From positions 38,141 to 102,140 of the forward strand of contig JABCRI010000934.1 of the NCBI GenBank assembly GCA_015143295.1: a DNA stretch of 64,000 bases, in the 5' to 3' direction. Shown piece after piece: positions 16,102-57,237 of the stretch. Position 1 is the stretch's first letter, and each line of letters starts with the position of its first letter. The translations under genes and the position numbers were made by a program. The DNA is from Tetracentron sinense. Lineage: Eukaryota; Streptophyta; Magnoliopsida; Trochodendrales; Trochodendraceae. The notes under the pieces are model-generated. The model saw nothing but the letters and a program-made list of their open reading frames with translations, was not told the origin of the DNA and ran no database searches.

Positions 16102-16195
16102 GGGTAAATTACAGTTACCTCCCCTAAGATTTGGTGAAATTGCAAAGACCTCCCCCTAGTTTCTAAAATTGCATTGCCCTCCTGTGTTTCAATTC
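16102..16195 (+). repeat. MULE terminal inverted repeat, left
   Basis: Starts GGGTAAATTACAGTTACC and includes TGGTGAAATTGCAAAGACCT and TTTCTAAAATTGCATTGCCC. Both blocks occur in reverse complement at 57150-57237. About 18 of the first 20 bases agree. Confidence 0.88.
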
Positions 16196-16275
16196 TGAGT
16201 AACAGATATTGCCCCTTTTGTTAACTTGACGTTACTAAAGTCGATGAACTTTGATGATGTCATGCTTTAAATGTT

Positions 16276-16443
16276 TGTTGATGATGAAAAATGATAAGAT
16301 GACACGTGGAGGTAATTTCCTAGTCAGAAGCCACGTGGATAAAGATTATGAAAATCTCAAAAGGTTCTATTACCTTAAAATATTTTTTACAAATTTTGAT
16401 TCAACAGCTTATCAGATATTTGTTTACACAATTTTGTGGTTTA
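16276..16443 (+). repeat. Tat 5' LTR, first part
   Basis: Starts TGTTGATGATG and matches 43870-44060 of the 3' LTR, apart from a short extra segment (about 43919-43939) present only in the 3' copy. It is cut at 16443 by the copia insertion; GTTTA (16439-16443) is repeated at 30693-30697. Confidence 0.92.
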
Positions 16444-17798
16444 TGTTAGACATGATGCCTAGAAAAGTCATTTACACTGTTAGATTCTTATTAATTTAAT
16501 TAATAAAGACTTCTTCTTAATCTATTGTGTATTCATTATAGGTAATTGACCATGATCATGAGATGATCTATACGATATGAGATATTGATAAAGGTCCTTA
16601 AGATATATTGTAGGAAAGTTATGTGATTAGATTATCACAGGTAGATATAACTTTCTGGTTCCTTATACCTTATATAGTCACAACTGTGGGTGAAGCTGGG
16701 CACTTCACTTATATGGCTGCCAGAATGCTAAGATGTTCTCAATAGTTGAGATGTAATTCTATCTCGAACTATTATAGTGAAGACTACATATCAGCATATG
16801 GGTCTTTAAATGTACACTGACTGATTGCATTCAATGAGAAACCTCTTGCATAAACATACTATCAGATAGTTGGTCTCTCATTCATATTGAACAGTTTAAA
16901 TGATCCTCAGATCTAATGAGTTCATCTATGACTGAGCAGTGATCTGACTGTTTTGATTCCACCAATGTATTTTCTAACTTAGGGAATACAATACAGTGAC
17001 AGTTGGATAGTCAGAAAGTTGTTCGAGTCATGATGAATTTCAAACAAGAAATCCATGCTCATTAATTTGAGAGATTATCCAAGTTCCGAGTAAGACAATT
17101 GATTAAGTTCAAATCCTGCGCAGGTGATTTTGAAAACAAAATAAGTTTTGAAATATACTTTTATTAAAAGGTATTATGCTTATAAAATGATTTTCTCAAA
17201 ATATTTTTCATGAGAAATTGTTTTTCATGGCTTAATCATAAGTCTTGGAAACTCGAATGATTTGCAATGGGCTATGAGTTAGATAGTATGTCAATCTCGA
17301 AGAAGCAATAAGGATAATGTATTTGGAAGGATAAATCGAATTTAGAAGTTCATGTGGCAGGATCCATATTGGTTAAATGTTCATACACTGGGATTCAATT
17401 GTAACATGAATATCTCACGTCACTTGCAATTCCGATGTAATTCCCGTTTAGGGTCAATGAGATAACATTTGGTAAGCCAGGGTAAGAATGTCCCAGAGCA
17501 ACATTGGAGGTTCTCACATAAGAAATAAAAGCTCAATAATTGATTAAAAGTTAATCAATTATTTAAGTGATTGAAAGTTAATCATTTAATTAAATAGATT
17601 AAAAGTTAATCTATGGTTTATATTAATTGTTAATTTACATCTAGGGATTATTTTATTAATTATTTAATTAAGAAAAAATTAAAGGGGAAATGGGTTTGAC
17701 CCATATCCATAAACCCATTAAAATGAACCTTTAATATGGGCCAAAGCCCATTGGTTTAAACCCTAGGGTGGGGCGCCCACTTGAGGAATCCTAATTGG

Positions 17799-17844
17799 AT
17801 TAGGATTATGTGTTTTTTTTTTTTTTTTGGAAATTAGGATTATG
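17799..17844. repeat. poly-T micro-insertion with 12-bp target duplication
   Basis: ATTAGGATTATG occurs at 17799-17810 and again at 17833-17844, enclosing 22 bases that are almost all T. The 3' LTR has a single ATTAGGATTATG here and no insertion, so this is a post-insertion event. It looks like a LINE-mediated insertion made of little more than a poly-A tail in minus orientation. Confidence 0.7.
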
Positions 17845-18053
17845 TTAATTAAATAATTGTTGAAATATAATTTCTATAATTATGGAATTAAAATCCAATT
17901 GTTGGATTGCAATTAGGATTAAGATGGAATTGTAATTGGATTACAAAAAGGAGTTTTAACTCCTCAAAACTCATGCCCCATAGCAGCTCACGCCCCCCCT
18001 TGGCATTGGTCTCCTAGTTTGACTAGGTTTCCTTCTCTTGTGTAGGACGTTGA

Positions 18054-20249
18054 TGTCGCGACCCAAAACCCACCCTAGGAGTTAGAGTGAACTTTGGACG
18101 ACTAATCATGGCTTACATGACTTGCTTGACAAACCAACCTGCAAAAACCCACAGAGCATATACAATAGAGGATGACAGCGGAAACATAACTATAAAACAC
18201 AGCGGAAGTCTAACAACCTCTAAGTATATATACATGGTCCAAGTTTAATACAAAGAAATCAAAACAAAGAAAGTGCGGACATACCCGCCAAAATACATGG
18301 ATATAATCATTCATGCTCACCCACAGGTAATCCACTCAGAATCTAACACCACCCACTGATAACCCTCTACGAGAGGTTCCTCCAAAGGCTCCTCGACGTA
18401 CTCCTCCTCCACCCATGGACCAGGAGCACAAACATCAAATGGAGCAGCAGCTCCCTCAGAACCTGCCGACATAAGAAGTACGGCTGAGCATGGAATACTC
18501 AGCGGGTACCAAGCACTAACCAACAGTCATAGCATACGTATAGCATACATAAAGCAGGAAACAATTCACGCATATAAAGCAGGAATGATTCATATCATGG
18601 CAATAAAGTAAAGCAATATAATTCATCATGTTTGCAATCATAAAAGCCGGTAAAACCCTTGAAATCTTGTGCACTTGACTTGACTGAAATTACCATTTTT
18701 ATGCTTGAAACCTTGTCTACCGTGTCATGCGTGTCATGCTTGTATCATGCGTGTATCATGCTTGCTTGTTCTGAAAAGTAATCTACTTGTGAGGGAAGGG
18801 AGACCCTTCTTCCTAGAATGCTCATGCTTGTCCTTCCACTTGTGAGATTCACTTGTGAGATGTCCTTGTGAGATGCACTTGCGAGGGAAGGGAGACCCTT
18901 CTTATGATATGTATGCACTTGCGAGGGAAGGGAGACCCTTCTTATGAAAATGCATGATTGTCTTGTCCTTGCCAAAAGCGAAGTAAAACATATCGTAGGA
19001 TATGCCCCACCTCTAAATCCCATTCTTGAAAACCTCGGTAAATCATGTCATGTATGCGTGCTCGTGAGGTCGTGTGCATACTTGCATTTGAAATTAAATA
19101 TGGCATTGAGTAATTCATAACAGATAACAGCAATGATTTGAGCAATTTAGTATTCATATCATTTAGGAAAAGCGAACAATCACACTATCATGACCCTAGC
19201 AATTTCCATAAACCTTAAACATGAAATTTATTAATTTATTATTCATCTCATTCACCTTGACATTTCATCAAACATGGTGCATTCATTATTTATTAACCCT
19301 ATAACATGCTTTTCTAGGTGGGTTATGCTCACATCATACGTGTTTGTTCATTATGGATACAATGCCCTCCCCATTTCATTCTTCACATCATTTCACACGG
19401 CATCCAATCGCCAATTCCGTCTCCATTCACCATTCAGACCCGTCCATCTCATAGCACATGTGTAAATGAAAGAAAACAAAGAGAAATAAAGTAAAAGAAG
19501 GAACTATAATTAGGAGGGTAGCAAGAAGTACCGACCTTGAAGAAATGAGGAAGAAACCCCTTCCAAAAACGACCGTGAGGTGCTGCCCTAGCTTGGGGAA
19601 CACTCTCCACGAGTGCTTGAACCGTGATCTTGGAGAAAAGCCGGACTTGAAGTGATCTAGGGTCTCAAAACCCTTTGATTTCTCTTCCAAAGACAAGCCC
19701 TAGGTTGGAATCGCTTTCTCCCCTTTCTCCTATTCTCTCAAACTCTCTAAGTGTCGAATGATACCCTAAAGGCTCGGGCAAGACTCTTAAGGTAAGAGTA
19801 AACCGACCAAAAGACCATAATACCCTTACTGAAATTTCTGCAAAAACGCGAGTACCGAGCGATCAGTGTTTATGACCGATCGATCGGTTGCCTACCGAGC
19901 GATCGGTGTGTTGACCGAGCTCTCGACCAAAAATCAACTCTCTGGAAAATTTTCCCATACAAAAATCTTGATCAGTCGATAGCTACCGATCGATCGGTTT
20001 TGGACCGATCGATCGCTCTATGGACCGAGCGATCGGTTGCCTGCAGGTTCAGACTGTTTTGGCCATATCTTTTGACTCGCTCGTCGGATTTTGACGATTC
20101 AACTTGCGTTGAGTTTGTACTTCGAAAAGGAACATTTCTGACGTTTCGGAATTTTCAATTTCTTCCTTATTTATTAATTGTACTACTTTAAAGGCAAAAT
20201 GGCTATGAAAGTGTCATGCATTAAATGTGAAAAGGTCCGGGGCTCTACA
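18054..20249 (-). mobile_element. solo LTR A, gypsy (chromovirus-like)
   Basis: A 2196-bp segment starting TGTCGCGACCC and ending GGCTCTACA, flanked by the exact TSD GTTGA (18049-18053, 20250-20254). The empty site is visible in the sister 3' LTR near 30040. It aligns in reverse complement with the solo LTR at 53908-56123 at both ends and at a stem-loop (18483-18503), so its sense strand is minus. Clustered CGATCG palindromes lie at 19852-20039. Tandem units with GAGGGAAGGGAGACCCTTC lie at 18786-18950. Tekay/Del-like assignment rests on the TGTA...TTACA-type ends and is inference. No coding capacity. Confidence 0.88.
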
Positions 20250-20433
20250 GTTGACTTATCCCTTTAATTAAGGAACCCTCTTATTAGAAGGACTCCTTAA
20301 TTAGTAGGTATTCTATAATTAGAGTAGTTATAGATAAACTAGGATATTGTTTAATTAATAATAAGAGTTATTATTGATAAACAATTCCTAAAAGATAAGA
20401 TCAAGTTGGAGTAGGATTAGGATAGGATCCTAG

Positions 20434-20443
20434 TCTATAAATA
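20434..20443 (+). promoter_or_regulatory. TATA box of the copia 5' LTR
   Basis: TCTATAAATA, conserved at 30224-30233 in the 3' LTR. Expected to set the transcription start of the copia genomic RNA about 30 bases downstream. Confidence 0.75.
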
Positions 20444-20842
20444 CCCCAACACCCTAGACCATTAAACACTTTTCTCCAGATTTTCGTGAGCTATATAGGT
20501 GGTGCAAATTGAGTTTTGCTTTTCTAGGGTTTTGAACCTTAGTACTTTTGGTGATAGAAGGTCTACACCATTACTCCATCTTCTTCCTCTTGCTTCTATA
20601 ATTTCAAATGAGATTCTAAAGCTTCGTGGGGATAGTGAAGAACAAAGATCGAGCTTCTAGTATTTTTTCGGAGAAATCTCTACAAAGAGTTCTAACGGTT
20701 CGAGTGGATTAAGTTTCACCGGTAAAAAACATTCACCGAGGTGATATGACTAAAACTCTTAGATAATTTTGATGCTTTCTATGGTGTTAAGATCTAGGGG
20801 ATCCAGTTTTCGTATAAATTTTTATCCGGATCCCCCTTCAAG

Positions 20843-20854
20843 TGGTATCAGAGC
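20843..20854 (+). other. primer binding site, initiator tRNA-Met
   Basis: TGGTATCAGAGC lies two bases after the 5' LTR end and is the standard copia primer site. Confidence 0.93.
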
Positions 20855-22423
20855 TCATGGTTAGGAGCATTTTTTGTTTATTTTGATAAGATAATTAAAT
20901 GGATGATTTAATTCATGAGATGAATTAATTTAGATCTATTTAATATTGCTCGTAGTTTTTATTATTTTATTTGTTCATGAGATGAATAAATAAATATTTA
21001 TTATATTTTTGAATGAGATTTGATAATTAAATGAAATTTAAAAACTAGTATTATATGTGATATAATTAAATTCGAAATAAAGAGTTTATTTTGAAATTAC
21101 TTTTAAATGATTTGATCATTTAATATATATTTATTAATTGTTTAAAATAATTAATAAATAATTTTTCCCATAAATAGATTTTATTTGAAAAATTATAAAA
21201 CCCTAATTAATGATGAGATCATATTTAGGATTTTCAATTCTCTTATTTTTTATTTTAATCCTGGATAATAGTAGAACCAATCTATATGAAAGGATCTTGC
21301 ATTCGGGAAAGAAATAAAATTTTGTAGAGATTTTAAGAAACTTCTATCTTATATTTTAAAAATAATTTTATGAAAATTGTTTTATGAAAAATATAATTAT
21401 TTTATTTTTTCCAGGGTTAGATCTATATAAGATATAGATTTTATCGAGCGATTTGATAATTGTTATCAAATTTTAAATCCTTTTAAAATAAGAAAAAGTA
21501 CTCCATCACCATGTAGCATCTATTTTATATGAGATTATAGTTATGGGTCATATTTTATAATAAATTGTTTATCATTCATGCATTCATATTAGAGGATAAT
21601 ATGTAATAGGTTTTGGTAATCTGTTTAATGCATTGATGGCGATGCTGTTAAGGAGGATGCTGCGATGTGATCTCGATAGGATGATAAAGAAAGGGATCGC
21701 GAAGGAGTTTGGAAGCTGTCTTTATTCTTATCTCATTCTCTTGCATCCATGCATTTTAATTTATTGACCTATAGCGATTAATCTCGTATAATATTGTTTT
21801 AATTATCATGAGATGATAGTTGTTTATTTTATCATGAGATGATATCTCTTTATATGTTTAAATTATTCTGTTGAAATAATTGCCCATGAATATATAATGT
21901 GTATATAAGACTGAGGACGAGTCTCTAAGTATTATGATCTTCTGCCATACACTATGTGATCCTATAGTGGGGAGTGTGAGTAAGCTGACAAGCCAAAGCC
22001 GGACCCAATCCCTCTCACCTATGAGTGAATATGGTGAAAACTGAATAAGCAAATAGTGGGAGCAATAATACCAAAGCGTGAGCTTTCGCTAGGTGTTTAT
22101 TAGGTTCATGGTAGGTGGGCACATGAATAAGAGATATTATACAATAACGCCAAAGCGTGAGTATAACATCCCTTATAGATCAGACAGTAGATCGAATACT
22201 CCAGAATTCGCAAGATGAGATCTGTGAAATTGGAGAAAATAGTTTCTATCTGCCTATTCAAGGCGATGTGATGATGTGCCCAAAGGTAGAATTACATAAG
22301 CCAGTGTCTAGGTTTTCGATGCCAATTGATTCTTCCCAAATTGGCTATACCATTAGAAACAGACCCATAATCTAATAGGTATTAATGAATACAATAGATC
22401 TCTAATACTATCTATTTTGTCAT
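20855..22423 (+). other. long untranslated leader of the copia element
   Basis: About 1.57 kb between PBS and gag with no conserved protein. A 72-codon ORF at 22157 matches nothing I recognise. The words CCAAAGCGTGAG occur twice (about 22071 and 22152). Very AT-rich between 20900 and 21560. Confidence 0.6.
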
Positions 22424-23152
22424 TTGAACCCATTGACTGAAATTCTTCATGATGAAAAGTTAGTTGGAACTAACTATGTAGACCAGAAAAGAAAGATTAG
22501 AATTATATTTTCTGTGGATAACCTTGACCTATGTCTTAAGACACCTAAGCCCGAAATTCCTCCAGATGCTTCACCGGCCCAAAAGGCTGAGTTAGAGCAA
22601 TGGGAGAGGTCCAATCAGATGACCATGTGTTATATACTGGCTTAGATGTCTAACATTTTGCAAAGTCAGCATGAACACATGGATAAGGCTTCTGACATTT
22701 TGCAAAACCTTCATGAGATGTTTGGTGAGCAAAATAGGTCAGCTCGACAAGTAAAGTTGAAATCCCTTGTTAACACCAAGATGGCTAAGGGAACTCCAGT
22801 CAGGGAGCACATCATAAAGATGATGGGCTTATTGAATGAACTGAAAATTCTTGGTGGGAGATGGATGCCATCACTCAAGTTGACACTGTTCTGCAGTCAC
22901 TCCATTCGTCCTTCAATTCGTTCGTGTTAAATTATAACATGAACAAGAGTGAAATGTCACTTAGTAAGCTTATGAACTCACTTGTGGCTGCAGAAGATTT
23001 GATCAAAAAGTCAACTAAAGGTGAAACTTTAATTGTCGATAAACTTGATATTTCCAAGAAATCTAAAAAGTTTAGAAAAGGGAATAAAGGCAAAGGAAAG
23101 TTTAAAGACAGGGTAAGGCAAGAGTTGCCAAAGGTTCTTCAGGAAAAGCTGG
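22424..23152 (+). pseudogene. copia gag, N-terminal part
   Basis: The start at 22424 gives MNPLTEILHDEKLVGTNY, the usual opening of this copia gag, followed by the UBN2-type helical domain (LHEMFGEQNRSARQ; VREHIIKMMGLLNEL). One in-frame TAG lies at 22643-22645 and the frame is lost near 22850, continuing from 22861 with DTVLQSLHSSFNSFVLNY. The basic linker KKFRKGNKGKGKFK precedes the knuckle. The gene is cut at 23152 by solo LTR B; the zinc knuckle lies beyond it at 25600. Confidence 0.9.
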
Positions 23153-25587
23153 TGTAACGACCCCAAAATCCCACAAGGCTAAAATAGGATTTTGGAATCG
23201 TCACATTACTAAACCTGCTTAAAGACCATGCATTCAAGGCTTACTACACGAGTATCCAAAAATGAGAGTAATAAAATTCCGATATATAAGCTATAACCAA
23301 CCTGCACAAGTATACGGTCAACATATACAACTCACTATAAACCAAAAGGTATGAAATACACAACTCTAAAAAAAGTCACTGAGCAACATCATCAGTCTAA
23401 TACAAAACTCTCTCAACCAACGAAACATAAACTAAGAGGTGTAGCCACCCAAGACTCCGGCTCCTTCCTCGATGGGCTCACCTTCTCCTCCTTCCTCAAT
23501 GTAAGTTTCTTCAACCCAAGGCTCCGCCGTGTACTCCTGCTCTAAACCTGCCAAGACAAAAGTCTGGCTGAGTACAAAAGTACTCGGTGTATATAAAATC
23601 CAACCAACAATAATAATACACCTGCATTTAGTTAGAAACATATCCAATAGCATGATAACATAATCAGAGTACGGAAGAACGTGTGCGCATATACATCATA
23701 TCATCACCTTGACTCGTGTACTTGTGAGAATCTTAGACATAGAAGACAATACACTTATGAACTGCTTATGCTTATGAGACCACGTGCTTGTGAGATGCTT
23801 ATGCTTATGCACTTATTCAGATCATACAATGATGTGACATGCCGTTCTTGGTGGATACGGACCATGTCTAAGAATCAAATGGTTGACATGCCGTTCTTGG
23901 CGGATACGGACCAAGCCTAAGAATCAAATGTAATTGACATGTCGTTCTTGGCGGATACGGACCATGCCATGCTTATGCTTATTCAGAATGTCATACGTAT
24001 GCCATGCTCATGCTTGTGGTCCACATGTGTGACTTGTGAGACTCTTATCTTAACATACACGTGCATATGTGCTTAAGTGTCGAAATTAACATTCGAGTTG
24101 GTAATTGCTTAGATTCCGATCTCCCACCATGGAAACTCCACTATACTGTCCCATACCAAATAGTTAGAGAATTCCCGGTTTGAGAGATGTTCCTCTAAGT
24201 TCTTACCTTCCCGACTATCAATTTCCATGCAAGTAATTAGACATACTTAACAAACAATTCACATATACATATCTTATCATAATTCATATCACAATTCATA
24301 ATCAATTTACCACCATTTCATAAGAGTATAATAGCATTTATCCTTTCAAGCATTTTCACAAACACCTTGAGTACGCATAATGTGAATCCATTTCCCTTCT
24401 ATATTTTCAAGCATTCATCAAATCATAATTCATCCATACAATCAATTCACTATTCACATCCACATATTAATCCCATCCTCCATACATTTCCCATCCTCCA
24501 TATATTCTATCCACATCCAATCCACATTTCCATCAATAATTAGCTTACTTCATAGAAAATTTGGGAAAAATGCATTTAATCTCTATTCTATCATTCCTAT
24601 CATATTAATATTCACAAAACATTAAAATAGAGTTGATTAGGATAGTATATTGACCTTAGGAATCCTTCCCTTGGATTCAGAACGCTCCCAGAGTGATTTG
24701 GGGAAGCTTTCCAAGCTTGCGGTATCCAAGCTATCTCCTTCTTCCCCAAGAAAGCCCTCTCTCAAAACCTTAGGGTTTCTCTCCCTTTTTGCCAAATTAG
24801 GTTAGAAATAGGTAGAGTATTCTAATACCCCGAAATAGTATCCCTATTTATAGCCCCAAGGTCTGAGAACCAAAAGACCAAAAAGCCCTTACTAAAATTC
24901 TGCAAAAACACGAAGGACCGAGCGATCGGTGGTTATGACCGATCGATCGGTTCTCAACCGATCGATCGGTGCTCTTGACCGGGCGATAGGTCAAAAAAGC
25001 ACTCACTGGAAATTTTCCCCATATAAAATTTTGGACCAGTCGATAGATACCGATCGATCGCTACTTCTGACCGAGCGATCGGTGCTCTGTAGATTTCTGA
25101 CCCATCGTACCGTTTTGACCATAACTTTTGACTCGTTCGTCGGATTTCGACGATTCAACTTGCATTGGATTCATCTTTCAAAAACGAACATTTCTGGTAT
25201 TTTAGAATTTCTAAATTCCTCTTTATTTATGGACCAAATTGTCCCCAAAGTTGACTGATCTGCAATTCCATCAGACAAAACCTCAGAAAACCCATTTTTG
25301 ACTTGGCTTAGACTAAAAATGAGGAAAAACATTAAACATGAACCTCGAAGAGGGTTCTAATACCTTTTTAATGGTTCAAGAATCACTCAATTCCAATAAA
25401 CGGTGCCAAAACTAGAGCTTCCTAAAGTTTAAAGTGTGATATGACATTTCTGAACTAGAAGTTTGATTAAATCTTAATCACACTACACCCATTAGAGATA
25501 CAATACAATAAATATTAAAACATCACAAAGACTATAATACCCCTAATGCAATGCAATAAAAACATGAAAAAGATTCGGGTCTCTATA
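23153..25587 (-). mobile_element. solo LTR B, gypsy (chromovirus-like), inside copia gag
   Basis: Starts TGTAACGACCCC and ends GGGTCTCTATA, where the final CA has mutated. Flanks GCTGG (23148-23152) and TCTGG (25588-25592) are a TSD with one mismatch; using one copy restores a continuous gag frame. It aligns with solo LTR C in reverse. A minus-strand TATA box (CTATAAATAG, 24853-24844) and CGATCG palindromes at 24916-25085 are clear. Three about 50-bp tandem units with GACATGCCGTTCTTGG lie at 23836-23960. It is about 240 bp longer than A because of an extra segment near 25270-25540 that includes one unit of the 182-bp repeat. Confidence 0.85.
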
Positions 25588-26295
25588 TCTGGCAAGGAAA
25601 ATAAGGGCAATGGAAAGTGTTTCCACTGTGGTAAAATAGGCCATTGGAAGAGGAATTGCAGGACTTACCTCGCAACTCTTAAGAAGGGTGGCGCTAATAC
25701 TCAAGGTATGAGATGCTTTGAAGTATTAATCACTGTTGAGTCTAGCTTTCTAGACGGTCCTCCTAACTCTTGGTGCGTGGATTCTGGATCCACTGTACAC
25801 GTATGCAATTCTTTGCAGGGGTTCAAGGAAACCGGAAAGCCGACCAAACAAGAGCAGAAGCTTAAAGTTGGCTTCGGTGCAAATGTTGCAGTGAAGTCAA
25901 TTGGCTTGTTTACTCTTTATTTACCTAATGGAAAGACATTAATTTTAGAAGACTGCTTTTATGTGCCTTCTGCACATCGTAATTTGATTTCAGTATCTAG
26001 ACTCTTACATTGTGGATTCTCTATCGTTTTTAATTCAATTGTTGAAATTAAGAAAGATGGAATGGTCTTAATAACTGGTAATCTCATTAATGGTCTTTAT
26101 CTAATATTTCCGTTGGTAAATAATGAATGTCTGCAAAGTGACAATATCTCATCATCTAGAATGTCTGGAATGAAGAGACATTGCACTGAGTCTACTTATC
26201 TTTGGTATAAGAGAGTTGGTCACATTAATCTTGATAGGATCAAGAGGTTAGTAAAAGATGGTCCCCTTGCAAGTCTTGTCTCGAAGGGAAGATGA
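25588..26295 (+). pseudogene. copia gag zinc knuckle, protease and GAG-pre-integrase
   Basis: An open frame with zinc knuckle CFHCGKIGHWKRNC, then protease with CVDSGSTVHVC (catalytic Asp in DSG), then a GAG-pre-integrase segment with [14 protein letters not shown]. The frame ends at 26295, where the Cys pair of the integrase HHCC zinc site should be; a one-base shift moves the rest into the frame that starts at 26292. An ATG at 25546 lies inside the solo LTR and is not the natural start. Confidence 0.9.
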
Positions 26296-28223
26296 CCAAG
26301 AAGCCTTACCCTAAAAAGGTAGGAAGAGCCGAAGGGAAGATGAGACTAATACATAGTGATGTATGTGGTCCATTTAACATTGTTGCACGAGGTCAATACC
26401 GGTATTTTGTCACATTTACCGATGACTATTCCAGATATGGATATATCTATTTGATGCAACACAAATCTAACACCTTTGAAAAGTTCAAAGAATTCAGATT
26501 AGAAGTTGAGAATCAAACTGACAAATCCATAAAGACACTTCGATCAGATCGAGGTGGTGAATACTTCACCAATGAGTTTATGGATTACTTAAGGGATAAT
26601 GGGATTATCTCGCAATGGATAACTCCTGCCTCTCCTCAACAAAATGGAGTTTCTGAAAGAAGAAACCGAACCTTATTAGATATGGTTCGCTCTATGATGA
26701 GCCATGCCGATGTTCCTTCATATCTTTGGGGATATGCTATACAAACTGCTATTTATATTCTGAACCAGGTTCCATCTAAGTCTATTCCGGTTACACCCTA
26801 TGAATTGTGGACTGGGCGAAAACCTAGTTTACAACATCTAAGGGTATGGGGTTGTCCTATGCATGTTCGCAAACTCGAACCCACTAAGTTGGAATCTAGG
26901 ACAGAGAAATAGAATTTTGTAGGATATCCAAAAGAAACTAAGGGTTTCTATTTCTACACCAGGGCAGACCAAACAATAGTTGTTAGGCTTCATGCCACTT
27001 TCTTGGAGGAAGAAATAGATCTCCTTAAGAATGCTGAATTTCATGAGGTGAAAGACGACATAGACAGTATCCAACCTGAACCTAATCCTTCCACTTTAAT
27101 TTCTCCTAATTCTATTCCACTGAGAAGGTCAGAAAGAGTTTCTAGACCACCGGATAGACTTCAGTATTATAATAATGAAGTTTATCTAGTTATCCCTGAC
27201 GATGAGGATACATATCCTAATACTTATCAGGAAGCTACATTAGATGTAAATGCATCTCAATGGAATAAAGCCATGAATGCTGAAATAGATTCCATGTATG
27301 AAAACGGTGTCTGGACTTTAGTAGATCCACCAGATGGTATAAGGCCAATTGGATGCAAATGGATTTACAAAAGAAAGAAGGGTGCCGATGGTAACGTGGA
27401 GACCTATAAAGCCAGACTTGTTGCAAAAGGTTATACTCAAATTCAAGGAGATGATTATGAGGATACCTTTTCACATGTTGCTATGCTCAAATCCATCAGG
27501 ATATTGCTAGCTATAGCTATACACCATGACTATGTGATATGGCAAATGGATGTCAAAACTGCTTTCCTTAACGGAATGTTAGATGAAGACATCTATATGA
27601 AGCAACCAGAGGGCTTCATTGCTCCTAACCAGGAGATCATGGTATGCAAGCTCAACAAGTCGATATATGGTTTGAAACAAGCTTCAAGAAGTTGGAACCA
27701 AAAATTTGATCTTTCCATCAAAGAATTTGGATTCCAAAAGAATTTGGAAGAATCTTGTATTTACAAGAAGGAAAGTGGGAGAGCGGTAGTATACCTAATT
27801 CTTTTTGTAGATGACATCCTACTCATTGGGAATGATGTAGGGATGTTTTCATCAGTCAAGATATAGCTTTCTCAGCATTTCTCAATGAAAGATTTGGGAG
27901 AGGCATCCTATATTATCGGAATAAAAATTCTAAGAGATAGGAAATACCGAATGTTGGGATTAAGCCAAACTTCCTACATAGACAAGATTTTGTCTAGGTA
28001 CAGTATAAGTGATTATAAGACAACACTCATTCCTTTTAGACATGGTACCACTTTGTCTAAAAAGATGGTCCCTACATCAGCTGATGAGATCAAGCAGATG
28101 AAGAGGTGCCCTTACGCTTTGGCAGTTGGGAGCCCCATGTATGCCATGTTATGTACTGGACCAGATATCTGTCATGCAGTGGGAGTTGTTAGTCGGTTCC
28201 AAAACAATCTAAGTATGAGATAA
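26292..28223 (+). pseudogene. copia integrase and reverse transcriptase
   Basis: One continuous frame apart from two stops (26910-26912 and 27864-27866). Integrase residues: the first Asp in IHSDVCGPF, the second in LRSDRGGEY and the Glu in [11 protein letters not shown], so the DDE triad is intact, followed by the GYP-type C-terminus. RT: IRPIGCKWIYKRKKG, KARLVAKGYTQ, QMDVKTAFLNG, SIYGLKQASRSW and the catalytic LFVDDILLIGND (FVDD in place of the commoner YVDD). The connection domain follows (MKDLGEASYIIGIKI). In a live element this would make and insert the cDNA. Confidence 0.93.
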
Positions 28224-28462: not shown

Positions 28463-28468
28463 CTTTTA

Positions 28469-28483
28469 GGGCAAGTGGGAGAT
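28469..28483 (+). other. polypurine tract
   Basis: GGGCAAGTGGGAGAT immediately precedes the 3' LTR start at 28484, the position required for plus-strand priming. Confidence 0.85.
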
Positions 28484-30692: not shown

Positions 30693-30697
30693 GTTTA

Positions 30698-32515: not shown

Positions 32516-32543
32516 CTTACAAGTGCCTCCTTCCTGAAAGACG

Positions 32544-39954: not shown

Positions 39955-39996
<42 letters not shown>

Positions 39997-45861: not shown

Positions 45862-45866
45862 ATGTT

Positions 45867-46647: not shown

Positions 46648-46704
46648 TCAATCAAAGTCCACTGCAGCAATTGGTGTCTTCACCTTAGGCGGCCTACCCA
46701 GTAT
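46648..46704 (-). pseudogene. AT-hook (HMGA-like) gene fragment, C-terminal end
   Basis: On the minus strand this encodes GRPPKVKTPIAAVDFD followed by TGA (46650-46648). GRPP is the core of an AT hook, which binds the minor groove of AT-rich DNA. It joins directly, across the copia insertion, to the piece at 56539, where the frame ends ATGSPRI. The copia element therefore sits a codon or so before the last AT hook. Confidence 0.7.
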
Positions 46705-47745
46705 TGTTGGGATATTGGTAATAATTGATGTATGTTATAATTTATATATATGCAAATTACAGAATTCTAAAAAACAATTACAGAACATACAATCAATGAT
46801 AATAGAACAGAGAATTAAAAGGCAGTGCACAAAACTGATTGAGGCTTGAATTTGATTCAATGTCCTTAAGACAATATTGCCCGGCACAGGTGGTCACAGC
46901 CTACAGCAACTTGTCTCCCAAGATACAACAGTCTCGTTCTGGGTACTACCACTAGAAGCCCGAGGACACAGCGAACCAGTGATGTTTAGTACTCTCTCTT
47001 GATTGATATGCAGATGACAGAATGCAGAAGAAGATGGAAAACTAGGGAGTAGAAGATCTGATTTTTGTACTCTAGAAAATGCAGTAGAAAAGCCTTAAAT
47101 AATATGCTAAGGAGACTGTCCAGAATGGTCATGTCTCTTGGGTTTCAGTTTAAATCCAACAGACATGACTGTTGGATTAAAAAGCTATTCGGTATAATTG
47201 TATAAGTTAAATGGGCTTTGGCCCAACAAAAAATAAATATAGGGGCCAGGCTTTAAGGCCCACAAAGTAACCAAACCAAACCAACCCAAGCCAGCTGGCC
47301 GGCCGGATCGGATCGGACTCGGACACGGGCACGGGCCGGGTCAGCGGCGGCATGCGTGTGTGTGGGTGGTTCCACTATGGAGCATGGGCTCACTCTTTCG
47401 CAAAATTTGGGTGCCCAAAGGGCCCACCCTTTACTCCAAGGTAATGGTATATAAACCAAACAATGGTTTCACTAATTTTCCGATGTGGGACTATTATTCT
47501 ATACCATTCTTCAACTTACAACACATGTTTAAGTGGCCCACTTTGAGATTAATTTCTCATTCACCACTTCACTATTTTGGACAAGTAAATATACCACGTT
47601 AATCTCCTCATGGAGGAGAACACGGATCCACTTTGACCCGCTTCAAAACCCTTGTGGGTCCCACTTATATTTTGGATCAAAGGTTGTAAAAAACAGGTTT
47701 TCTAAACCACCCAGAATTTTTCCAAAACAGATTTATTTCCCAACA
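46705..47745 (-). repeat. copia-2 3' LTR (left copy)
   Basis: Begins TGTTGGGATATTGG and ends TTTCCCAACA, matching the right copy over its length. It contains a GC-rich stretch with CGGATCGGATCGG and CACGGGCACGGGCC (47295-47345), part of which corresponds to the insertion site of solo LTR C in the other copy. Confidence 0.93.
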
Positions 47746-48321
47746 ATCCTTACATGAATGAGAATTCCTAGACAGAACACAGAATATATGCAGACACTAA
47801 AAGAGAGTACAAGTGAAAAGTTACTGAATCGGGAAAGGTAGCTTTTGGCCTTGAACCTTCCTTAGTGAAGTACTATCGGATTTACTGGCTATCCAGTGAA
47901 CATGATGTCTTGAACTGTTCAGCCATAGTGTAAACCAAGACAATAGAACTCACACATTTCCTTTTTGAACACCTTTGGTTCTCATGGTTGTGTTCATTTT
48001 GGCTTTGAACAACTCCTGATTTTTTCATAAGTGCTCTTAAAGAATTTTGCCTTTTAAAAAAAAAAAATTCTTATAGAAGCGGCCCCTCTTCACACTTATA
48101 TAGGTCATCTCTTATCAAGAGTATCTCATCATACCCCACTTGGATTTCTAAGATATAAGAATCATTAAAAGCTTTGCTTACCCTAGATTCTTTCACTGTT
48201 TCATCATAGAAATGGGATGAAGAAATTTATTCTTCACAGTGACATTACTGAGTTACACACAATTAGGTTGTCCCTTTGAACCTAGATCTTTGGATCTCCA
48301 GTTAGCTAGGTTGGGTTTCTA
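47746..48321. other. copia-2 3' untranslated part
   Basis: Lies between the RNase H end and the 3' LTR on the minus strand. No conserved ORF. A poly-A run at 48057-48067 on the plus strand. A polypurine tract at the LTR border is not obvious. Confidence 0.5.
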
Positions 48322-49820
48322 TTATGTCGACTCTTTAGATATAGGCTTTAGTCCAATTCCCCTCGATGATTTATACACTTGCTCTAAAGTCAAACCTTTG
48401 GTTAATGGATCTGCTATGTTATTCTTTGACTTTACATAATCAATGGAAATGATTCCATTTGAGAGCAACTGTTTCACGGTATTGTGTCTTCGACGTATAT
48501 GTCGAGATTTACCGTTATACATACTGTTTTGTGCCCTTCCAATCATAGATTGATTATCGCAATGTATGCAGATAGCTAACACAGGTTTTGGCCAACTTGA
48601 AATATCTTCTAAAAAGTGACAAAGCCATTCTGTTTCTTCACCAGCTTTATCTAAAACTATAAACTCAGATTCCATAGTGGATCTAGCTATACATGTCTGT
48701 TTAGAAGATTTCCAAGATACCGATGCACCTCCAAGTTTAAAGACAAATCCACTAGTTGATTTTGAGTCTTTAATATCAGATATCCAATTTGCATCACTAT
48801 ACCCTTCAAGTACAGTTGGATATCTTGTATAATGCAATCTATAGTTTTGGGTATATCTCAAATATTTGATAACCCTAACTATTGCCTTCCAGTAGTCTTC
48901 CCCTGGATTGCTTGTATATCAACTCAGTTTGCTGACTGAGTAAGCTATATCAGGTCTGTAGTTCATGAGATACATTACACTACCAATGATCCGAGAATAC
49001 TCCAACTGGGATATTTCTTGTCCAGTATTCTTACTTAGATGTAAATTTACATCTACTGGTGTTTTTGCAAGACTTTTATCATCCTTGATAAATCTTTCAA
49101 GGGTCTTCTTAATGTAATGAGATTAAGATAAGATGAGTTGTTCAGATGTTCTAGTAATTTTAATTCCTAGAATTATATCTGCAACACCTAGATCTTTTAT
49201 GTCAAATCTTTTATTTAACATCCTTTTGGTAGATTGAATGATTTCATTACTGCTACCTATGATTAACATATCATCCACATAAAGACAAACAATGACATAA
49301 GCTTTTTCAGTGCTTTTGACATAAACACATTTATCGCACTCATTAATCCTGAAATCATTTGACATCATAACATTGTCAAATTTCTCATGCCATTGTTTAG
49401 GAGTTTGTTTTAATCCATAGAGGGATTTAACAAGTTTATATACTTTCTTTTCTTGGTTACTTGTCATGAAACCTTCAGGTTATTACATGTAGATCTCTTC
49501 ATTCAAATCACCATTTAAGAAAACAGTTTTTACATCCATTTAATATATCTCTAAGTTGTTAACAACAACAATAGCTATTAACATACGGATGAATGTTATC
49601 CTTGTAACTGGTGAATAAGTATCGAAATAATCGTTACCTTCCTTGTGCTTCTAGCTCTTTACTACAAGTCTTGCTTTGTATTTGTCAATCGTTCTATTAG
49701 CTTTCATCTCCTTCTTGAATATCCATTTACATCCTAATGGTTTATTCCCTGAAGGAAGATCCACCAATTCCTAAGTATGATTTTGCATGATGGACTCGAT
49801 TTCACTATTTATAGTCTCTT
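48322..49820 (-). pseudogene. copia-2 reverse transcriptase and RNase H
   Basis: Minus-strand RT begins with GCKWIFKK near 49735, then MDVKTVFLNG, KSLYGLKQTPKQWHEKF and the catalytic CLYVDDMLIIGS (about 49290-49255), then the connection domain (IKDLGVADIILGIKI). RNase H at 48861-48322 has [20 protein letters not shown] (first Asp), [10 protein letters not shown] (Glu) and IHCDNQSMI (Asp), and ends with [11 protein letters not shown]. All pieces share one frame; stop codons interrupt it near 49490-49560, at 49123 and between 49120 and 48870. Confidence 0.92.
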
Positions 49821-49821
49821 T

Positions 49822-50970
49822 TCAAGATGGTGCTTCTGGAGAAGACATGGCTTCTTTAAAGCTTTGAGGCTTATTTTCCAACAAATAAGTTAGAAAATCA
49901 AGACCGAAAGATGTAGTAGTTTTTGCTCTTTTACTACGCTTTGGTTCATCTTCATTCTCCTTATCTATAGACTCTTGATCTATATTTTCTTGATGATCAC
50001 TATTAATAGTGTCATGTATCCATTTTATAGGATTATGTTCTTGTACAACCTTACAAGGAAATATAGTTTCAAAGAAAGATGCATTCCTTGATTCCATTAT
50101 CATATTGACATGTATATCAGGAATATTTGACTTGTGTACAAGAAACCGATATGCACTGCTATTGTAAGCATATCCAATGAAGATGCAATCCACTGTCTTT
50201 GGTCCTATCTTAACCTTCTTAGGAGCAGGAACTGCTACCTTTGCTAGACACCCCCCACACTTTTAAGTATTTGTAGGAAGGTCTTCGACCATTTCACAAC
50301 TCATAGGGTGTCTTTTCTATTTTCTTGTGGGGTAGTTTGTTAAGAATATAATTAGTAGATAAGATTGCTTCCCCCACAAGTTATGAGGCAAACCTGAACT
50401 GATCAATTATGTATTCATCATTTCCTTTAGAGTTTGGTTTTTGCGTTCAGAAATACCGTTCTGTTCAGGTGAGTAAGGAGCGGTTCTTTGATGAATTATG
50501 TCATGTTCTTTACAGAACTCATCAAATGGTGACACCTATTCACCCCTTCTATTGCTTCTTAGCATCTTAATTTTTTGGTTAAGTTGATTTTCAACTTTAC
50601 TTTTATAAAGTTTGAACATATCCAAAGCCTCATCTTTGCTACTTAGCAAATAGATATGACAGTACCTTGTGCAATCATCAATGAAGGTGATGAAATATTT
50701 TTTCCCACCTCTTGTTTATCCAAATTTTAAATCACAGATATCACTGTGAATCAACCCTAAAGGTTCAGTACTTCTTTCAATTGAGTGAAAGAAGTTCTGG
50801 ATAATTTGAATTCCACACAAATTTCACATTTATTATTTGAATCAAATTTAATTTTTGGAATTAAATCTGAATTAGCAAGTCTACGTAATGAATCAGAATT
50901 TGCATGTCCTAGTCTAGCATGCTATAAATCAAATGACTCAAGCATATAAACAGAAGAACTAGCTTTATTA
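49822..50970 (-). pseudogene. copia-2 integrase, strongly decayed
   Basis: The same minus-strand frame carries recognisable integrase blocks despite stops: a DDCTRY-like segment, LRSNRRGE where LRSDRGGE is expected (the second catalytic Asp is Asn), and EQNGISERKNQTLKEM with the catalytic Glu. The integrase C-terminal part at 50193-49822 is open (DCIFIGYAYNSSAYRF) and continues into a Lys/Glu-rich linker before RT. Not functional. Confidence 0.8.
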
Positions 50971-51348
50971 TTAAGGTATCACAGTCATTACATTCAGTTT
51001 GAATAATCCTTCACAGAGATATCCTCTGCCAACATACATCCCATTTTTAGTCAGAACAAATTTGTCTAACTTAAAGACTAACTTGAAACTATTCTTACTA
51101 AGAAGTGCTCCTGAAACATGATTCTTTCTGATGTCTGGTACATGCAAGACATCATTCAAGGTAAGCTCTTTCCCCGAAGTCATCTTCAGAACAACCTTCC
51201 CGGATCCTTGAACAGTTGAAGTAGATGAGTTTCCCATGTAGAGTTTTTCTACTGCAGTAACTCTATGATAGTTACTGAATGCACTCCTATTTGAACAGAT
51301 ATATCGAGTTGCTCCAGTATCTACCCACCATTGTTTGAGATTCAGCAT
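50971..51348 (-). pseudogene. copia-2 aspartic protease
   Basis: Open for 125 codons. [14 protein letters not shown] carries an intact DTG catalytic motif, and [18 protein letters not shown] is the conserved block after it. Upstream it is separated from gag only by a stop at 51358; the frame is the same. Confidence 0.9.
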
Positions 51349-51357
51349 TATATTTAC

Positions 51358-52305
51358 TTATGAAATAACTGCTGACAGGTGCATATCTGAAACATCATCA
51401 GTGATGTTCTCTACTTCAGTAATGTGAGCCTGAGTTGATTCTTTCTTGGATTTCCCTTGGAAGTTCCAGTTTCTGCAGTTCTTAGCCACATACCCTGACC
51501 TGTTACAGATGTAGCAAAGGCCCTTGAACATTTTCTGTTGCTTGCCTTTTTGCTTCTGACTTGAACCTGCTTCAAAATGGTTCCTCTTCTTGGACTTGTG
51601 TTCCACCACATTGGCCTTTGATTCAAGAACTTGTTTTCCAGCCTTTCTTTCATATACTCTATTATCTTCCTCAATTCTGAGTCGGATAATTAAGTCATCT
51701 ACCCTCATTTCTTTTCGCTTGTGCTTAAGGTAATTTTTGAAGTCCTTCCAAGATAGAGACAACTTCTCAATTACAGTAGCAACTTGGAATGATTCACTTA
51801 TCATCATTCCTTCTGCATGGATCTCATAAATGATCAATTGGAGGTCTTGGACTTGGCTTATCACAGTTCTTGAATCAACCATTTTGAAATCAAGAAATTT
51901 GCCAACCATGAATTTCTTCATCCCGACATCCCCAGTCTTGGATTTCTTGTCCAAGGACTCCCATAATTCTTTAGCGGTCTTAATTGGACTATATACATTG
52001 TATAATGCATTATCCAAGCCGTTCAAGATGTAGTTCTTGCACAAGAAATCAGCATGTTTCCATACTTTAATTGTAGCAACTGTCATCCGATCTGATTTAT
52101 CCTCTTTCAGGGTAGGGGCATCCTCTTGCAAGAATCTTGCCAAATTCAAGGTGGTCAGATAGAACAACATCATTTACTGCCATCTCTTGAAATCCGTTCC
52201 ATTAAATTTCTCAGGTTTTTCACCATGAGCAATGGGGCATGCAGTGGGGATAGTTAGCACTTGTGCCACAATTGGAGTAGGAACAATAGTCTTTCCGATA
52301 GTCAT
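51358..52305 (-). pseudogene. copia-2 gag
   Basis: The start was chosen at the ATG at 52305, because it gives MTIGKTIVPTPIV and then KPEKFNGTDFKRWQ, the conserved gag opening. A TAA follows at about 52176-52174 and the frame is then open to 51358. It includes the UBN2-type domain (AKELWESLDKKSKTGDVGMKK) and a zinc knuckle reading CYICNRSGYVAKNC. The metal-binding His is Tyr, so the knuckle is damaged. Confidence 0.92.
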
Positions 52306-52319
52306 GTGTGTTTTGATGA

Positions 52320-53300
52320 CTGTAAAATAATAATATAAAATAAGATTCTAGACTTTTAACTAATCACAGAAATGAAGATTACTAATGTAGTAATCTAACT
52401 TCACAATGCAGATTTTATCAATGTAGAATTCTAAATTTCAGATTACAGAAATGCAGAAATTCAAAATCAGAATTCCAATTCCAAAAGTTGAAAACAGAAT
52501 TAGAAATTGAAGTAATCTAAATGTAGAATTTACTGGTGCAGATTTTGAACATGTAGATTGCAGAATTTAAAATATAGATTTTATGAATTACAGATTTCAA
52601 ATCTAAGAAAATGAAATATCAGATTTTAATTTCAGATTTAAAAAATTGCAGATTCAAATTTACAGAATTGTAAAGTGTAGATATTAAGGATGCATAATTC
52701 TGCGCAGAAAATTATAATTGCATAATTTTAATTTCAGTAAATTAATTGCAGAATTAAAATTGGAGAATTATAAAAAAAAATTTTAAGAGGCATAATCTAA
52801 CATTGCAGAATTCTGTTAAGTGTAGAATTTAAATGCAGAATGTAGAATTTGCAAATTGCATAATTTTAACAATGTAGTGCAGAATTTGAATTCTAAAGTG
52901 CAGATTTTAAATTGCAGTATTTCAGAATCCAGAATTAAAAGTGCAGATTTCGGAATTTGAAATAGCAATATGCAGAATTCTAATTCGAAATTGCAGTTTT
53001 AAAATGTGTAGAATTCTGTACAGATTCTAAAACTCCAGAATTAATAAATGCAGAATCTAAAACTGAATTGCAGAATTTAAAGTACAGAATCTCAAATTCC
53101 AAAATATGAATTTCAGTATTCTAAATGCATAATTTAATTTTACAGAATTCAAATTTCAGATTCAGAATTACAGTATTTCAAATTGTAGAATTTGAAACTG
53201 TAATTACAGAAATTGGAATACAAAATTTCAGCAGACAGTACAGAATATTGTAATTTGCAACAGTAAGAATAATATACAACAACAATATTGTCTTAAGAAT
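52320..53300. repeat. degenerate CAGAATTT-rich leader of copia-2
   Basis: Nearly 1 kb between gag and the 5' LTR is built of irregular reiterations of words such as GCAGAATTT, CAGATTTTAAATT and CAGAATTCTAAA, on average one every 10-20 bases, without fixed period. No ORF. The same word occurs near the LTR start (ATTACAGAATTCTAAA), so it may have grown from LTR sequence by slippage. Confidence 0.75.
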
Positions 53301-53907
53301 TGTTGGAGATATTGTTAATAATTACTGTATGTTATAATTTATATATATGCAAATTACAGAATTCTAAAAAAAATTACCGAACATACAATCAATGATAATA
53401 GAACATAAAATTAAAAAGCAGTGCACTTTACTGACTGAGGCTTGAATTTGATTCAATGTCCTTAAGACAATATTACCCCGCACAGGTGGTCACGGGCTAC
53501 AGCAACTTGTCTCCCAAGATACAACAGTCTCGTCCTAGGTACTAACACTAGAAACTCGAGGACACAGCGAACCAGTGATGTTTAGTACTCTCTCTTGACT
53601 AATATGTAGATGATAGAATGCAGAAGAAGATGGAAAACTAGGGAGTAGAAGATCTGATTTTCGTACTCTAGAAAATGCAGCAGAAAAACCTTAAATAATA
53701 TGCTAAGGAGGCTGTCCAGAATGGTCATGTCTCTTAGGTTTCAGTTTAAATCCAACAGACATGACTGCTGGATTAAAAAGCTGTTGGGTAAAACTGTATA
53801 AGTTGAATGGGCTTTAGCCCAGCAAAAAATAAATATAGGGGCCAGGCTTTAAGGCCCACAAAGTAACAAAACCAAACCAAATTAAGCCAGCCGGACCCGG
53901 ACACGGG

Positions 53908-56123
53908 TGTAGCACCCCGGACTTTTTCATCCTTAATGAATAGCACCTTCGTAGCTAATTGGCCGTTTTTGTAGTCTAATTAATAAATAAGGGAGAAATC
54001 GGAAATTCCGAAACGTCAGAAATGTTCGTTTTCGAAAGACGGATCCAACGCAAGTTGAATCGTCGAAATCCGACGAGCGAGTCAAAAGATATGGTCAAAA
54101 CAGTCCAGACATACACAGCACCGATCACTCGGTCCAGTCAACGATCGATCGGTCCATAACCGATCGATCGGTAGCTATCGCACGGTCAGAAATTTTGTAT
54201 GGGGAAATTTTCCAGAGAGTGAGTTTTTGACCGGTCGATCGGTCATAAACACCGATCGCTCGGTAGGCAACCGATCGATCGGTCATAACCACCGATCGCT
54301 CGGTCTTCGCGTTTTTGCAGAAATTTCAGTAAGGGCGTTTTCGTCTTTTGGGTGTTAAACCCTTACCCATAAGGGTTTGCTCGACCCTTTGAGGCCTCAC
54401 TTACAACACTTAGGGATATTTGAGAGAGAGGGAGAAGAAACTAGGGTTCCAAAGCTCCCTTTCCATTTGAGAGTAAGATCAATGGTTTAAGCACCCAAGA
54501 GCATCCCTAAAAGCTTGGATTTCGAAAATCCAACCTCAAGCTCGTGTGGGACTCCTTCTCCAAGGTAGGGCAGCGTTTTCCACGGTTCAAGGTTTTTTCC
54601 CCACACCAAGCCTTCTTCAAGCAAGGATCTTTCTTCTTGCAAGTTGGAGCTTCAATCAAGGTTTCTACCAAGGATCAAGCCTTGATTCAAGGTTAGTACA
54701 CCCTACTAACTTACCCTAGCAATAAATCTAGGTCTTCCTTATGAAATATGATTCTTGTTAGTGTGTTTTATTCCTTGCAAAAATGTGTCATCTATAATAA
54801 ATATAAACAAGATAAAGAAAGGGTAGGAATACTTGGATGGAGGTTGGATACGGCGATTGGATGCCGAATGTGTGATGTATGATGTGTGGGTTGTGGATTG
54901 GAAAATGGAGGATGGGCATTGTACAAATAACAAACTTACCATTGTGTGATTGAATGGAAAATATGAGCTAAAAAGAACAAGATGAATTATTAAGAAACAT
55001 TGCATGTGTTGTGTTTGACAAAATGCCTAAACTATGAATAAACGACTTAGATGAAGAAAATGGAAATAGGTTTTATGCATGTGTTCTTATAGACGATGAA
55101 TTGATCCAATGTCATGTGAATTACTTAAGTTACCTATGCTAATATTATGAATTGAATTGTAATACCATATCTCTTTTGTTAAGCGCATTCCCACGATTGT
55201 TATTATTGGTACGCACATGAGCACGCATGATAGCATGAACCGAGATTTCAAGAGCATGTGCATATAATAAACACAAGTGCATTGCATAACAAGGAGGTTG
55301 GTAGCCCAGGGACATTCGGGTGCTAGCCTCTGGCTCACAAGTGCATTGCATAACAAGGAGGTTGGTAGCCCAGGGACATTCGGGTGCTAGCCTCTGGCTC
55401 ACAAGTTACGAGATGGAGGTTTACAAGATGATGATCATGCATTCATGCATGCACGCATACGTGATTTCTACGAGGCATACCGGGACATGATATGGGTTTT
55501 CGAGCATGAGTTTTATCGGCGTTTTCGCATTCATGTACGCACGTCAGGATGCTTGTATTGTATCATGCCTTATACTGTTTCTTTTGTGATGTTTCTATTA
55601 CTGCTTGTATGATATTACTATTATGTGTTTTTACTATTGTTATGGTCTGCTAGTAGCTTGTACTCGCTGAGTATTCCATGCTCAGCCGTACTTTCATGTC
55701 GACAGGTACTGAGGGAGCCCTCGACCCGGAGCCTTGAGTCGAGGAAGAGTATATAGAGGAGAGAGAGCCGGCTATTCCATTACAGTCTCAGGCGGACCGA
55801 GACCTCGATGCGTGGCCATACCTCGACTACTGTTGAGGGGAGAGTATGAGAGGGTCTTATGTATGTTGATATTTTTATAGGTGGGCCTGTCCACCTTAGA
55901 CTTAGATGTGTTTTGTATTTATGTCAACTTGGAATACTACACTTTGGATCATCCGAAGAAATGAAAATTTTGTTTACGCTTCCGCATATATGATAGCTTC
56001 CGCGCTCTGATTATCGTTGTTAGTATTGTATTTTATCTTGTGCATTGCAGGATGGTTTGATAGCTACGCAGTGTGACACCTAAAATATCCCTAAACTCCT
56101 AGGGGGTATTTCGGGGCGTTACA
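53908..56123 (+). mobile_element. solo LTR C, gypsy (chromovirus-like)
   Basis: 2216 bp, TGTAGCACCCCGG to GGGGCGTTACA, flanked by an exact TSD ACGGG (53903-53907, 56124-56128). It is in sense orientation: a palindrome-rich U3 (54118-54305), then a GAGAGAGAGGGAGAAG leader near 54421-54436 and the conserved stem-loop GCTGAGTATTCCATGCTCAGC minus its last base at 55666-55686. A perfect or near-perfect 64-bp tandem duplication lies at 55274-55401. There is no coding content and no second LTR, so it is a solo LTR left by recombination. Confidence 0.9.
55274..55401. repeat. 64-bp tandem duplication in solo LTR C
   Basis: The unit starting CAAGTGCATTGCATAACAAG occurs at 55274 and 55338, and the next base run (CAAGT at 55402) begins a third, truncated unit. 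The copies look identical, so the duplication is recent. Confidence 0.9.
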
Positions 56124-56538
56124 ACGGGTCTGGTCGGTGGTGGCGCGCGCGTGTGTGGTTGGTTCCACCATAAAGCATAGGCTCACTCCTTTTCAAAATT
56201 TGGGTGCCCAAAGGGCCCACCCTTTACTCCAAGGTAATGGTATATAAACCATAAAATGGTTTCAATAATTTTCCAATGTGAGACTATTATTCTATATCAT
56301 TCTTCAACTTACAACACATGTTCAAGTGACCCACTTTGAGATTAATTTCTTATTCACCACTTCACTGTTTTGGACAAGTAAATATACCACGTTAATCTCC
56401 TCATGGAGGAGAACACGGATCCACTTTGACCTGCCTCAAAACCCTTGTGGGTCTCACTTATATTTTGGGTCAAAGTTTGTAAAAAACTGGTTTTCCAAAC
56501 CGCCCAGAATTTTTCCAAAACAGATATATTTCCCAACA

Positions 56539-56850
56539 GTATTCTCGGCGATCCAGTTGCTGTCGTTGTAGCTGCAGTCGTCGTCATTCGAGCCTTCTTT
56601 GGTGGAAGCCCATGCCCACGAGACTTCCCACTACCTGAAGAAACTTTCAACAGCTCAGCCACAGTTGAAGAGTCCCTTGGTTTGGGTAGTCAACCTCTTG
56701 GTCTCAGTAGTGAAATAACAGTCCCTGACAGCAATGGAAGCTTCGGCTTCGGCGGCCGGCCACGTCCCGTGTTGGTGGGGCATCAGGATTTGGCCGCATG
56801 TAATTGTTCTTTGCCATGATTAGCTCTCCACTCTTTTTTAGTTCAAGTGG
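56539..56850 (-). pseudogene. AT-hook (HMGA-like) gene fragment, main part
   Basis: On the minus strand, reading from about 56850, LELKKSGELIMAKNNYMRP resembles the C-terminal end of a linker-histone H15 domain, followed by NPDAPPTR. After a frameshift comes TGRGRPPKPKLP (AT hook 1), RPRG-stop-LPKP (hook 2, broken by TGA), KSRGHGLPPKK (hook 3, diverged) and a Thr/Ala-rich run leading to hook 4 at 46704. An H15 end followed by several AT hooks is the plant HMGA plan. Most of H15 and any start are missing. It lies between MULE terminal repeats, so it was probably captured by the transposon. Confidence 0.65.
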
Positions 56851-57149
56851 TGAAACAACAACAATGAGTGATCGGGCGGTAGATCTCCGTCCAAAGTAAG
56901 GATATGTATCACTTTTTAATCAAGACACAATCTAGGGGAGCAATGAAAAACCCCTACATTTAAGAAAGCTAAGAAAGCACATAACTACATAAGCTATAAT
57001 TTGTTTTGGTGAGAAGAAGTCTTGCTAGACTTGAGAGGCGTGTTAGACTTGAGAGGCGTGTTGAGTAGAGAAAGTTTTTGAGTGAAAAGGAAAAATGCTT
57101 TAACTCACAATAGCATATTTTCTGTTAATAGTGTTAACTTAACCAACCT
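56851..57149. other. MULE interior, right arm
   Basis: Between the AT-hook fragment and the right terminal repeat. It contains a direct duplication of TAGACTTGAGAGGCGTGT at about 57026 and 57044. No conserved ORF. Confidence 0.6.
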
Positions 57150-57237
57150 GACAGGGGAGGGCAATGCAATTTTAGAAACTAGAGGAGAGGTCTTTGCAAT
57201 TTCACCAAACCACAAGGGTGGTAACTATAATTTACCC
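57150..57237 (-). repeat. MULE terminal inverted repeat, right
   Basis: Reverse complement starts GGGTAAATTATAGTTACC and shares TGGTGAAATTGCAAAGACCT with the left arm. The 9-bp TSD AAGATTTTA follows at 57238-57246. Confidence 0.88.

Follow-up and report, generated by a model that had tools for sequence, protein, structure and literature searches.

What is the short element that lies in pieces beneath nested retrotransposons at positions 16102–57237 of this Tetracentron sinense contig, and is the chromatin-protein sequence that it carries still part of a gene in use? We addressed these questions in a window of 64,000 nucleotides, by which we mean the whole stretch of DNA that was analysed, in which all coordinates below are given. 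Our analysis favours, with a probability of roughly 0.9, a non-autonomous Mutator-like element (Pack-MULE) that captured a fragment of a host gene for HMGA (HMG-Y-related protein A), a fragment that has since decayed and been buried by insertions.

Five nested insertions occupy most of the element

A self-comparison of the window, together with a reading of the boundaries, identified five nested insertions, each accompanied by a 4–5-bp duplication, which take up most of the element. The largest, insert A (16276–45861, plus strand), is a Ty3/gypsy LTR retrotransposon bounded by LTRs and by the target-site duplication (TSD) ATGTT, in which Pfam recognises reverse transcriptase, RNase H, gag, RVT_3 (a further RNase H-like domain) and integrase, and which appears to be Tat-like. 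The 5' LTR of insert A is interrupted by insert B (16444–30687, plus strand; TSD GTTTA), a Ty1/copia LTR retrotransposon with Pfam matches to integrase and RVT_2, and the 5' LTR of insert B in turn holds insert C (18054–20244, plus strand; TSD GTTGA), a TG...CA insertion that is presumably a solo LTR. Insert E (46705–56538, minus strand) is a Ty1/copia element with LTRs, recognisable ends and Pfam matches to copia gag and Pol_BBD; it is flanked by a 4-bp duplication, GTAT, and lies inside the fourth AT-hook of the HMGA fragment described below. One of its LTRs contains insert D (53908–56123, minus strand; TSD ACGGG), which is partly related to insert C, has the opposite orientation and may likewise be a solo LTR.

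The nested retrotransposons, about 39 kb in all, had been recognised correctly in an earlier sequence-only reading of this DNA. The two spans that it gave for the inserts each include one copy of a duplication: 16276–45866 is the element to 45861 plus one 5-bp TSD copy, and 46705–56542 is the element to 56538 plus a 4-bp GTAT copy.

Divergence between LTRs (K2P) was 0.0735 in A and 0.0489 in B. For E it was 0.0835, a value calculated with the split point in one LTR set 13 bp off the boundary of D, which should affect it little. B is thus younger than A, in agreement with its nesting inside A. At the substitution rate of 3.25e-9 per site per year given for Trochodendrales in PMC7709256, these values translate into ages of about 11 Myr for A, 7.5 Myr for B and 13 Myr for E, which can only be rough because the rate is one for synonymous sites.

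Two further features of the inserts are worth recording in their own right. Inserts C and D and a region internal to B (24869–25230) are related in sequence at 77–81%, with ACCGATCGATCGGT-like units, from which it seems that a single repeat family has landed several times. Separately, insert A has frames in antisense orientation on the 3' side of its integrase (39189–43025, minus strand), two of which match the plant mobile domain (PMD; PF10536, E 4.4e-20 and 9.5e-10), while one weakly matches PEARLI-4, below the cut-off. The presence of PMD in plant gypsy elements has already been described in PMC9289625. A protein search with the gypsy-encoded PMD frame of insert A gave one match, in Sesbania, and no Tetracentron relative.

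The joined element carries part of an HMGA gene

With the five inserts removed, the element measures 1707 bp, bearing out the 1.7 kb that had been proposed for it after removal of the retrotransposons. Its content was assessed by tblastn with two T. sinense proteins, HHK36_006747 (P0001) and HHK36_014466 (P0002). Read along the minus strand, the joined element first shows the final part of an H15 domain and then a link that includes KNNYMRPNPDAPP, followed by AT-hook positions 1–3, hook 4 and a C-terminus ending VKTPIAAVDFD. The end of the H15 domain (56841–56906) spans 22 aa and matches HHK36_006747 at 59%; the link from H15 to the AT-hooks (56767–56841) spans 25 aa, matches the same protein at 88% and lies in another frame; and AT-hook positions 1–3 (56543–56779), which are matched by both proteins, lie in a third frame, where an in-frame stop at 56690–56692 crosses hook 2. 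The rest of hook 4 and the HMGA C-terminus, followed by a stop codon, are found at 46651–46704 on the same strand, in frame with 56543 once insert E is taken out. Both proteins align in one piece over the junction at which E was removed. In the alignment of HHK36_014466, a gap of 4 residues closes four residues ahead of this junction.

Comparison of the joined cargo with plant HMGA proteins, which the sequence-only reading had proposed as a check, gave E values of 4e-40 for HHK36_006747 and 4e-44 for HHK36_014466. Their best single HSPs reached 108 and 130 bits, respectively, far above the shuffled control, in which nine HMGA queries were run on 300 dinucleotide shuffles and scored 24.6 bits at most. 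The H15-like end and the four AT-hook positions that had been read on the minus strand are therefore confirmed by tblastn on the joined element.

A profile search, which had been put forward as the other test of this homology, turned out differently: in the fragment, scanned in four pieces, Pfam had no match of any kind, neither H15 nor AT_hook, so that the refuting outcome named beforehand came about to the letter, whereas the direct sequence comparison stood clear of its control. We do not count the Pfam blank as a refutation, because the AT_hook model misses most intact relatives and because most of H15 is missing here. Indeed, AT_hook is listed by Pfam for just 3 of the 30 relatives obtained in the protein search described below. 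When four Tetracentron relatives were scanned, the H15 model was found in three, one of which also showed AT_hook below the cut-off, and HHK36_014466 had no match. A sequence search of the PDB with the fragment gave no match.

Plant HMGA proteins such as HHK36_006747 have the same order of an H15 end and four AT-hook positions. Unlike that protein, the present fragment lacks most of H15, and its coding part is interrupted by two frame breaks and one stop. An intact frame with H15 and AT-hooks, by which we would recognise a functional plant HMGA gene, is not found in it. The HMGA fragment is dead, and the element thus holds no chromatin-protein gene in use.

Two stretches of cargo flank this homology. 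The 784 bp that extend outward from the HMGA stop codon (45867–46650, minus strand) have no Pfam match above the cut-off in frames of at least 30 aa, and probably represent the 3' UTR and flank of the donor gene. At the other end, 249 bp (56907–57155, minus strand; G+C 0.353) separate the right terminal repeat from the H15 homology and lie outside all tblastn matches.

The closest relatives are found in Tetracentron sinense itself

When the fragment was searched against about 5.8 billion proteins, 30 passed E 0.001 (best E 4.6e-44), the top two being HHK36_006747 and HHK36_014466. The first ten or so residues of the protein query, which also served for the Pfam and PDB searches and the tree, were patched from two frames (LIKKXYIS, LDGDLP) and are unreliable; at the start of the query only HILTLDGDLPP is supported by tblastn of the DNA, and the unreliable residues were left out of the shared-residue comparison below. 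A linker-histone domain is present in 29 of the 30 relatives, the exception being HHK36_014466, a protein of 106 aa. A second search, using HHK36_014466 as query, added HHK36_024502 and HHK36_029952, both from T. sinense, among the matches listed (the best 120 of 179). On the same best 120 of 179, T. sinense has at least four HMGA-like proteins, at least three of which bear H15.

In a tree of 26 rows (25 chosen from 138 proteins, plus the window), the window fragment and HHK36_014466 form a pair whose stem measures 0.25 and whose support is 100/99, from a bootstrap that had not settled. None of the other three Tetracentron proteins has a firm placement in this tree, and the donor is not singled out. 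For this purpose HHK36_006747 was cut to residues 1–172 because its annotated end fails to align; past residue 172 it aligns with none of the compared HMGA proteins, and this part looks like a gene-model error.

The pairing is mirrored in individual residues. The window fragment and HHK36_014466 have six residues in common that are absent from the other 14 of the 16 aligned HMGA rows, one of the six (column 144) sitting in a gap-rich stretch. By the same measure, the fragment has one otherwise unseen residue in common with HHK36_006747 and none with either HHK36_024502 or HHK36_029952, and five other comparison pairs have between 0 and 2. Over common columns, the fragment is 80.0% identical to HHK36_014466 and 71.8% identical to HHK36_006747. 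The six include a change of K to T just before hook 1 and one of R to L in hook 4, both of which we take to be harm to DNA-contacting parts.

Given the 100/99 pairing and the six exclusive residues, the window fragment and HHK36_014466 probably descend from one decayed copy, and the exclusive residues imply that both probably went through a common period of decay once they had left the functional gene. This suggests that HHK36_014466, which is annotated in Tetracentron as a gene, may be a decaying fragment instead. Since HHK36_014466 reads past the point at which insert E landed, its locus seems to be without E, unless the gene model splices across it. For orientation, PMC7709256 places the split between Tetracentron and Trochodendron at 30.7 Mya.

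A shared history of this kind raises the question of what was captured. It is conceivable, if on balance somewhat doubtful, that the MULE captured a dead HMGA paralogue, with HHK36_014466 being that paralogue or its remnant as opposed to a transposed copy, in which case the decay common to it and the window would predate capture. The residues that the two have in common and their common stem of 0.25 point to decay before they split; T. sinense has the several HMGA-like proteins counted above, and two genome duplications are reported for its lineage in PMC7709256. However, the start of HHK36_014466, too, falls within the H15 region. An old whole gene would begin there only by coincidence, although this start may be no more than an annotation choice.

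We consider it improbable that the fragment is a processed (reverse-transcribed) copy that was later carried by a MULE. No intron was recognised in it, but this tells little. A processed pseudogene would be recognised by a poly(A) tail following its 3' UTR. A run of 8 A does occur on the minus strand, close to the far end, yet it lies about 730 bp past the stop codon, and neither cargo part has another run of A or T that reaches 7 bases. Homology moreover begins inside the H15 domain, which argues against a processed copy, even if such copies can be short too. Scarcely more credible, and if anything slightly less so, is the proposal that a truncated AT-hook frame without H15 was spread in Trochodendrales by MULEs, such that the open HHK36_014466 would be an expressed, transposon-born protein with four hooks and the window copy its dead sister.

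Terminal inverted repeats and a 9-bp duplication point to a probable Mutator-like element

The outer ends of the element indicate how the fragment is likely to have been carried. The left terminal inverted repeat (TIR; 16102–16182, plus strand) and the right TIR (57156–57237, minus strand) emerged from the self-comparison as an inverted pair facing outward, with 90.2% identity over 82 columns (blastn E ~1e-26). The pair has a local score of 125, with the TSD inside the alignment, compared with a maximum of 27 in 200 shuffles. Terminal repeats of about 90 bp had been claimed for this element; the inverted pair is real, and its length is 81–82 bp. A further 93 bp of element sequence lies inside the left TIR (16183–16275). 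Directly outside the TIRs, the exact 9-bp TSD that had also been claimed is present on both sides, with AAGATTTTA found identically at 16093–16101 and 57238–57246; among random pairs of 9-mers drawn within the window, 9 in 400,000 were identical.

The first 18 bases of the TIR, allowing up to 3 mismatches, occur in the window at the two ends and at no third site (shuffle mean 0.04, n=100). A 20-base TIR word had 0 matches in viral contigs and 0 in prokaryote contigs, as expected for plant DNA and uninformative as to copy number, and a literature search with the 10-base start of the TIR gave no DNA-transposon paper among the titles listed. As for coding capacity, Pfam matched no transposase in any of the 34 frames of at least 30 aa that touch 45867–46704 or 56543–57237, the two cargo parts.

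To classify the element, we adopted the cut-offs given in PMC3903597, namely TIRs more than 75% identical and a TSD of 8–11 bp. The TIR identity of 90.2% and the exact 9-bp TSD fall within both, an HMGA fragment lies between the TIRs, and Pfam recognises no transposase in the cargo frames; together, these features support the Pack-MULE that the sequence-only reading had proposed. It is very unlikely that the ends derive from some TIR superfamily besides Mutator, which would make the element another Pack-TYPE transposon. In favour of that reading, neither a MULE transposase (by Pfam, in the cargo frames) nor a further TIR copy (within the window) was seen. Against it, the TIRs are long, and the 9-bp duplication differs from those of hAT (8 bp), CACTA (5 bp), PIF (3 bp) and Mariner (TA) elements (PMC8903248).

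On the Pack-MULE reading, a segment of a host HMGA gene that starts within the H15 domain and extends past the stop codon would have been copied in between the ends of a MULE, probably through template switching or the repair of a gap. Both replication fork switching and gap filling figure as capture models in PMC8277862, an animal study that reviews plant cases. Transposase supplied from elsewhere would then have placed the element at its present site, creating the 9-bp duplication that is seen there. To judge from the shared residues, decay of the coding part had probably set in before this lineage separated from that of HHK36_014466. One gypsy and one copia element landed in the element, followed by three more insertions inside those.

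Lacking both a recognisable transposase and an unbroken HMGA frame, the element most likely does nothing now. It is possible, if hypothetical for this element, that it is transcribed or gives rise to small RNA directed at the donor gene.

Comparison with known Pack-MULEs

Over 3,000 Pack-MULEs are reported from rice, and the fragments that such elements capture are usually non-functional (both PMC13317346). The present element resembles those of rice and other plants in its MULE-type ends, 9-bp TSD, host gene fragment and lack of a detected transposase, and differs from them in lying beneath nested insertions that total about 39 kb. Sacred lotus, another early-diverging eudicot, has 1,447 Pack-MULEs of the same kind according to PMC4053705. 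In maize and rice, PMC3903597 reports nested insertions in over a third of transposase-bearing MULEs, with LTR elements commonly found in MULEs; whereas those nested MULEs carry transposase, the element described here carries a host fragment.

The literature search turned up no paper that joins Pack-MULE and AT-hook, and Pack-MULE and HMGA occurred together in one paper, on fungi, so that the captured gene may be new for Pack-MULEs. The Pack-MULE is itself a known kind of element, and the present case brings no new mechanism or principle. It does illustrate that nested retrotransposons can hide a Pack-MULE, separating the two pieces of its gene fragment by 9.8 kb and its ends by 41 kb.

Other features of the window

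Several weak matches were taken as chance: one of P0007/P0035 at 9708–9794 (E 0.005) and, all below their cut-offs, Pfam matches to AIM24 (E 0.22), Cohesin_load (E 0.009) and the IFT80 propeller (E 0.047), the last two of which share a frame that runs into insert E. Rfam, searched at gathering scores, had no match in the window. Outside the element, 4175–4852 holds four tandem copies of a unit of about 181 bp, and 3656–3909 holds three tandem copies of one of about 81 bp; part of the 181-bp unit is about 80% like 25308–25429. Finally, a 172-bp fold-back at 57848–58019, about 76% self-complementary, is MITE-like.
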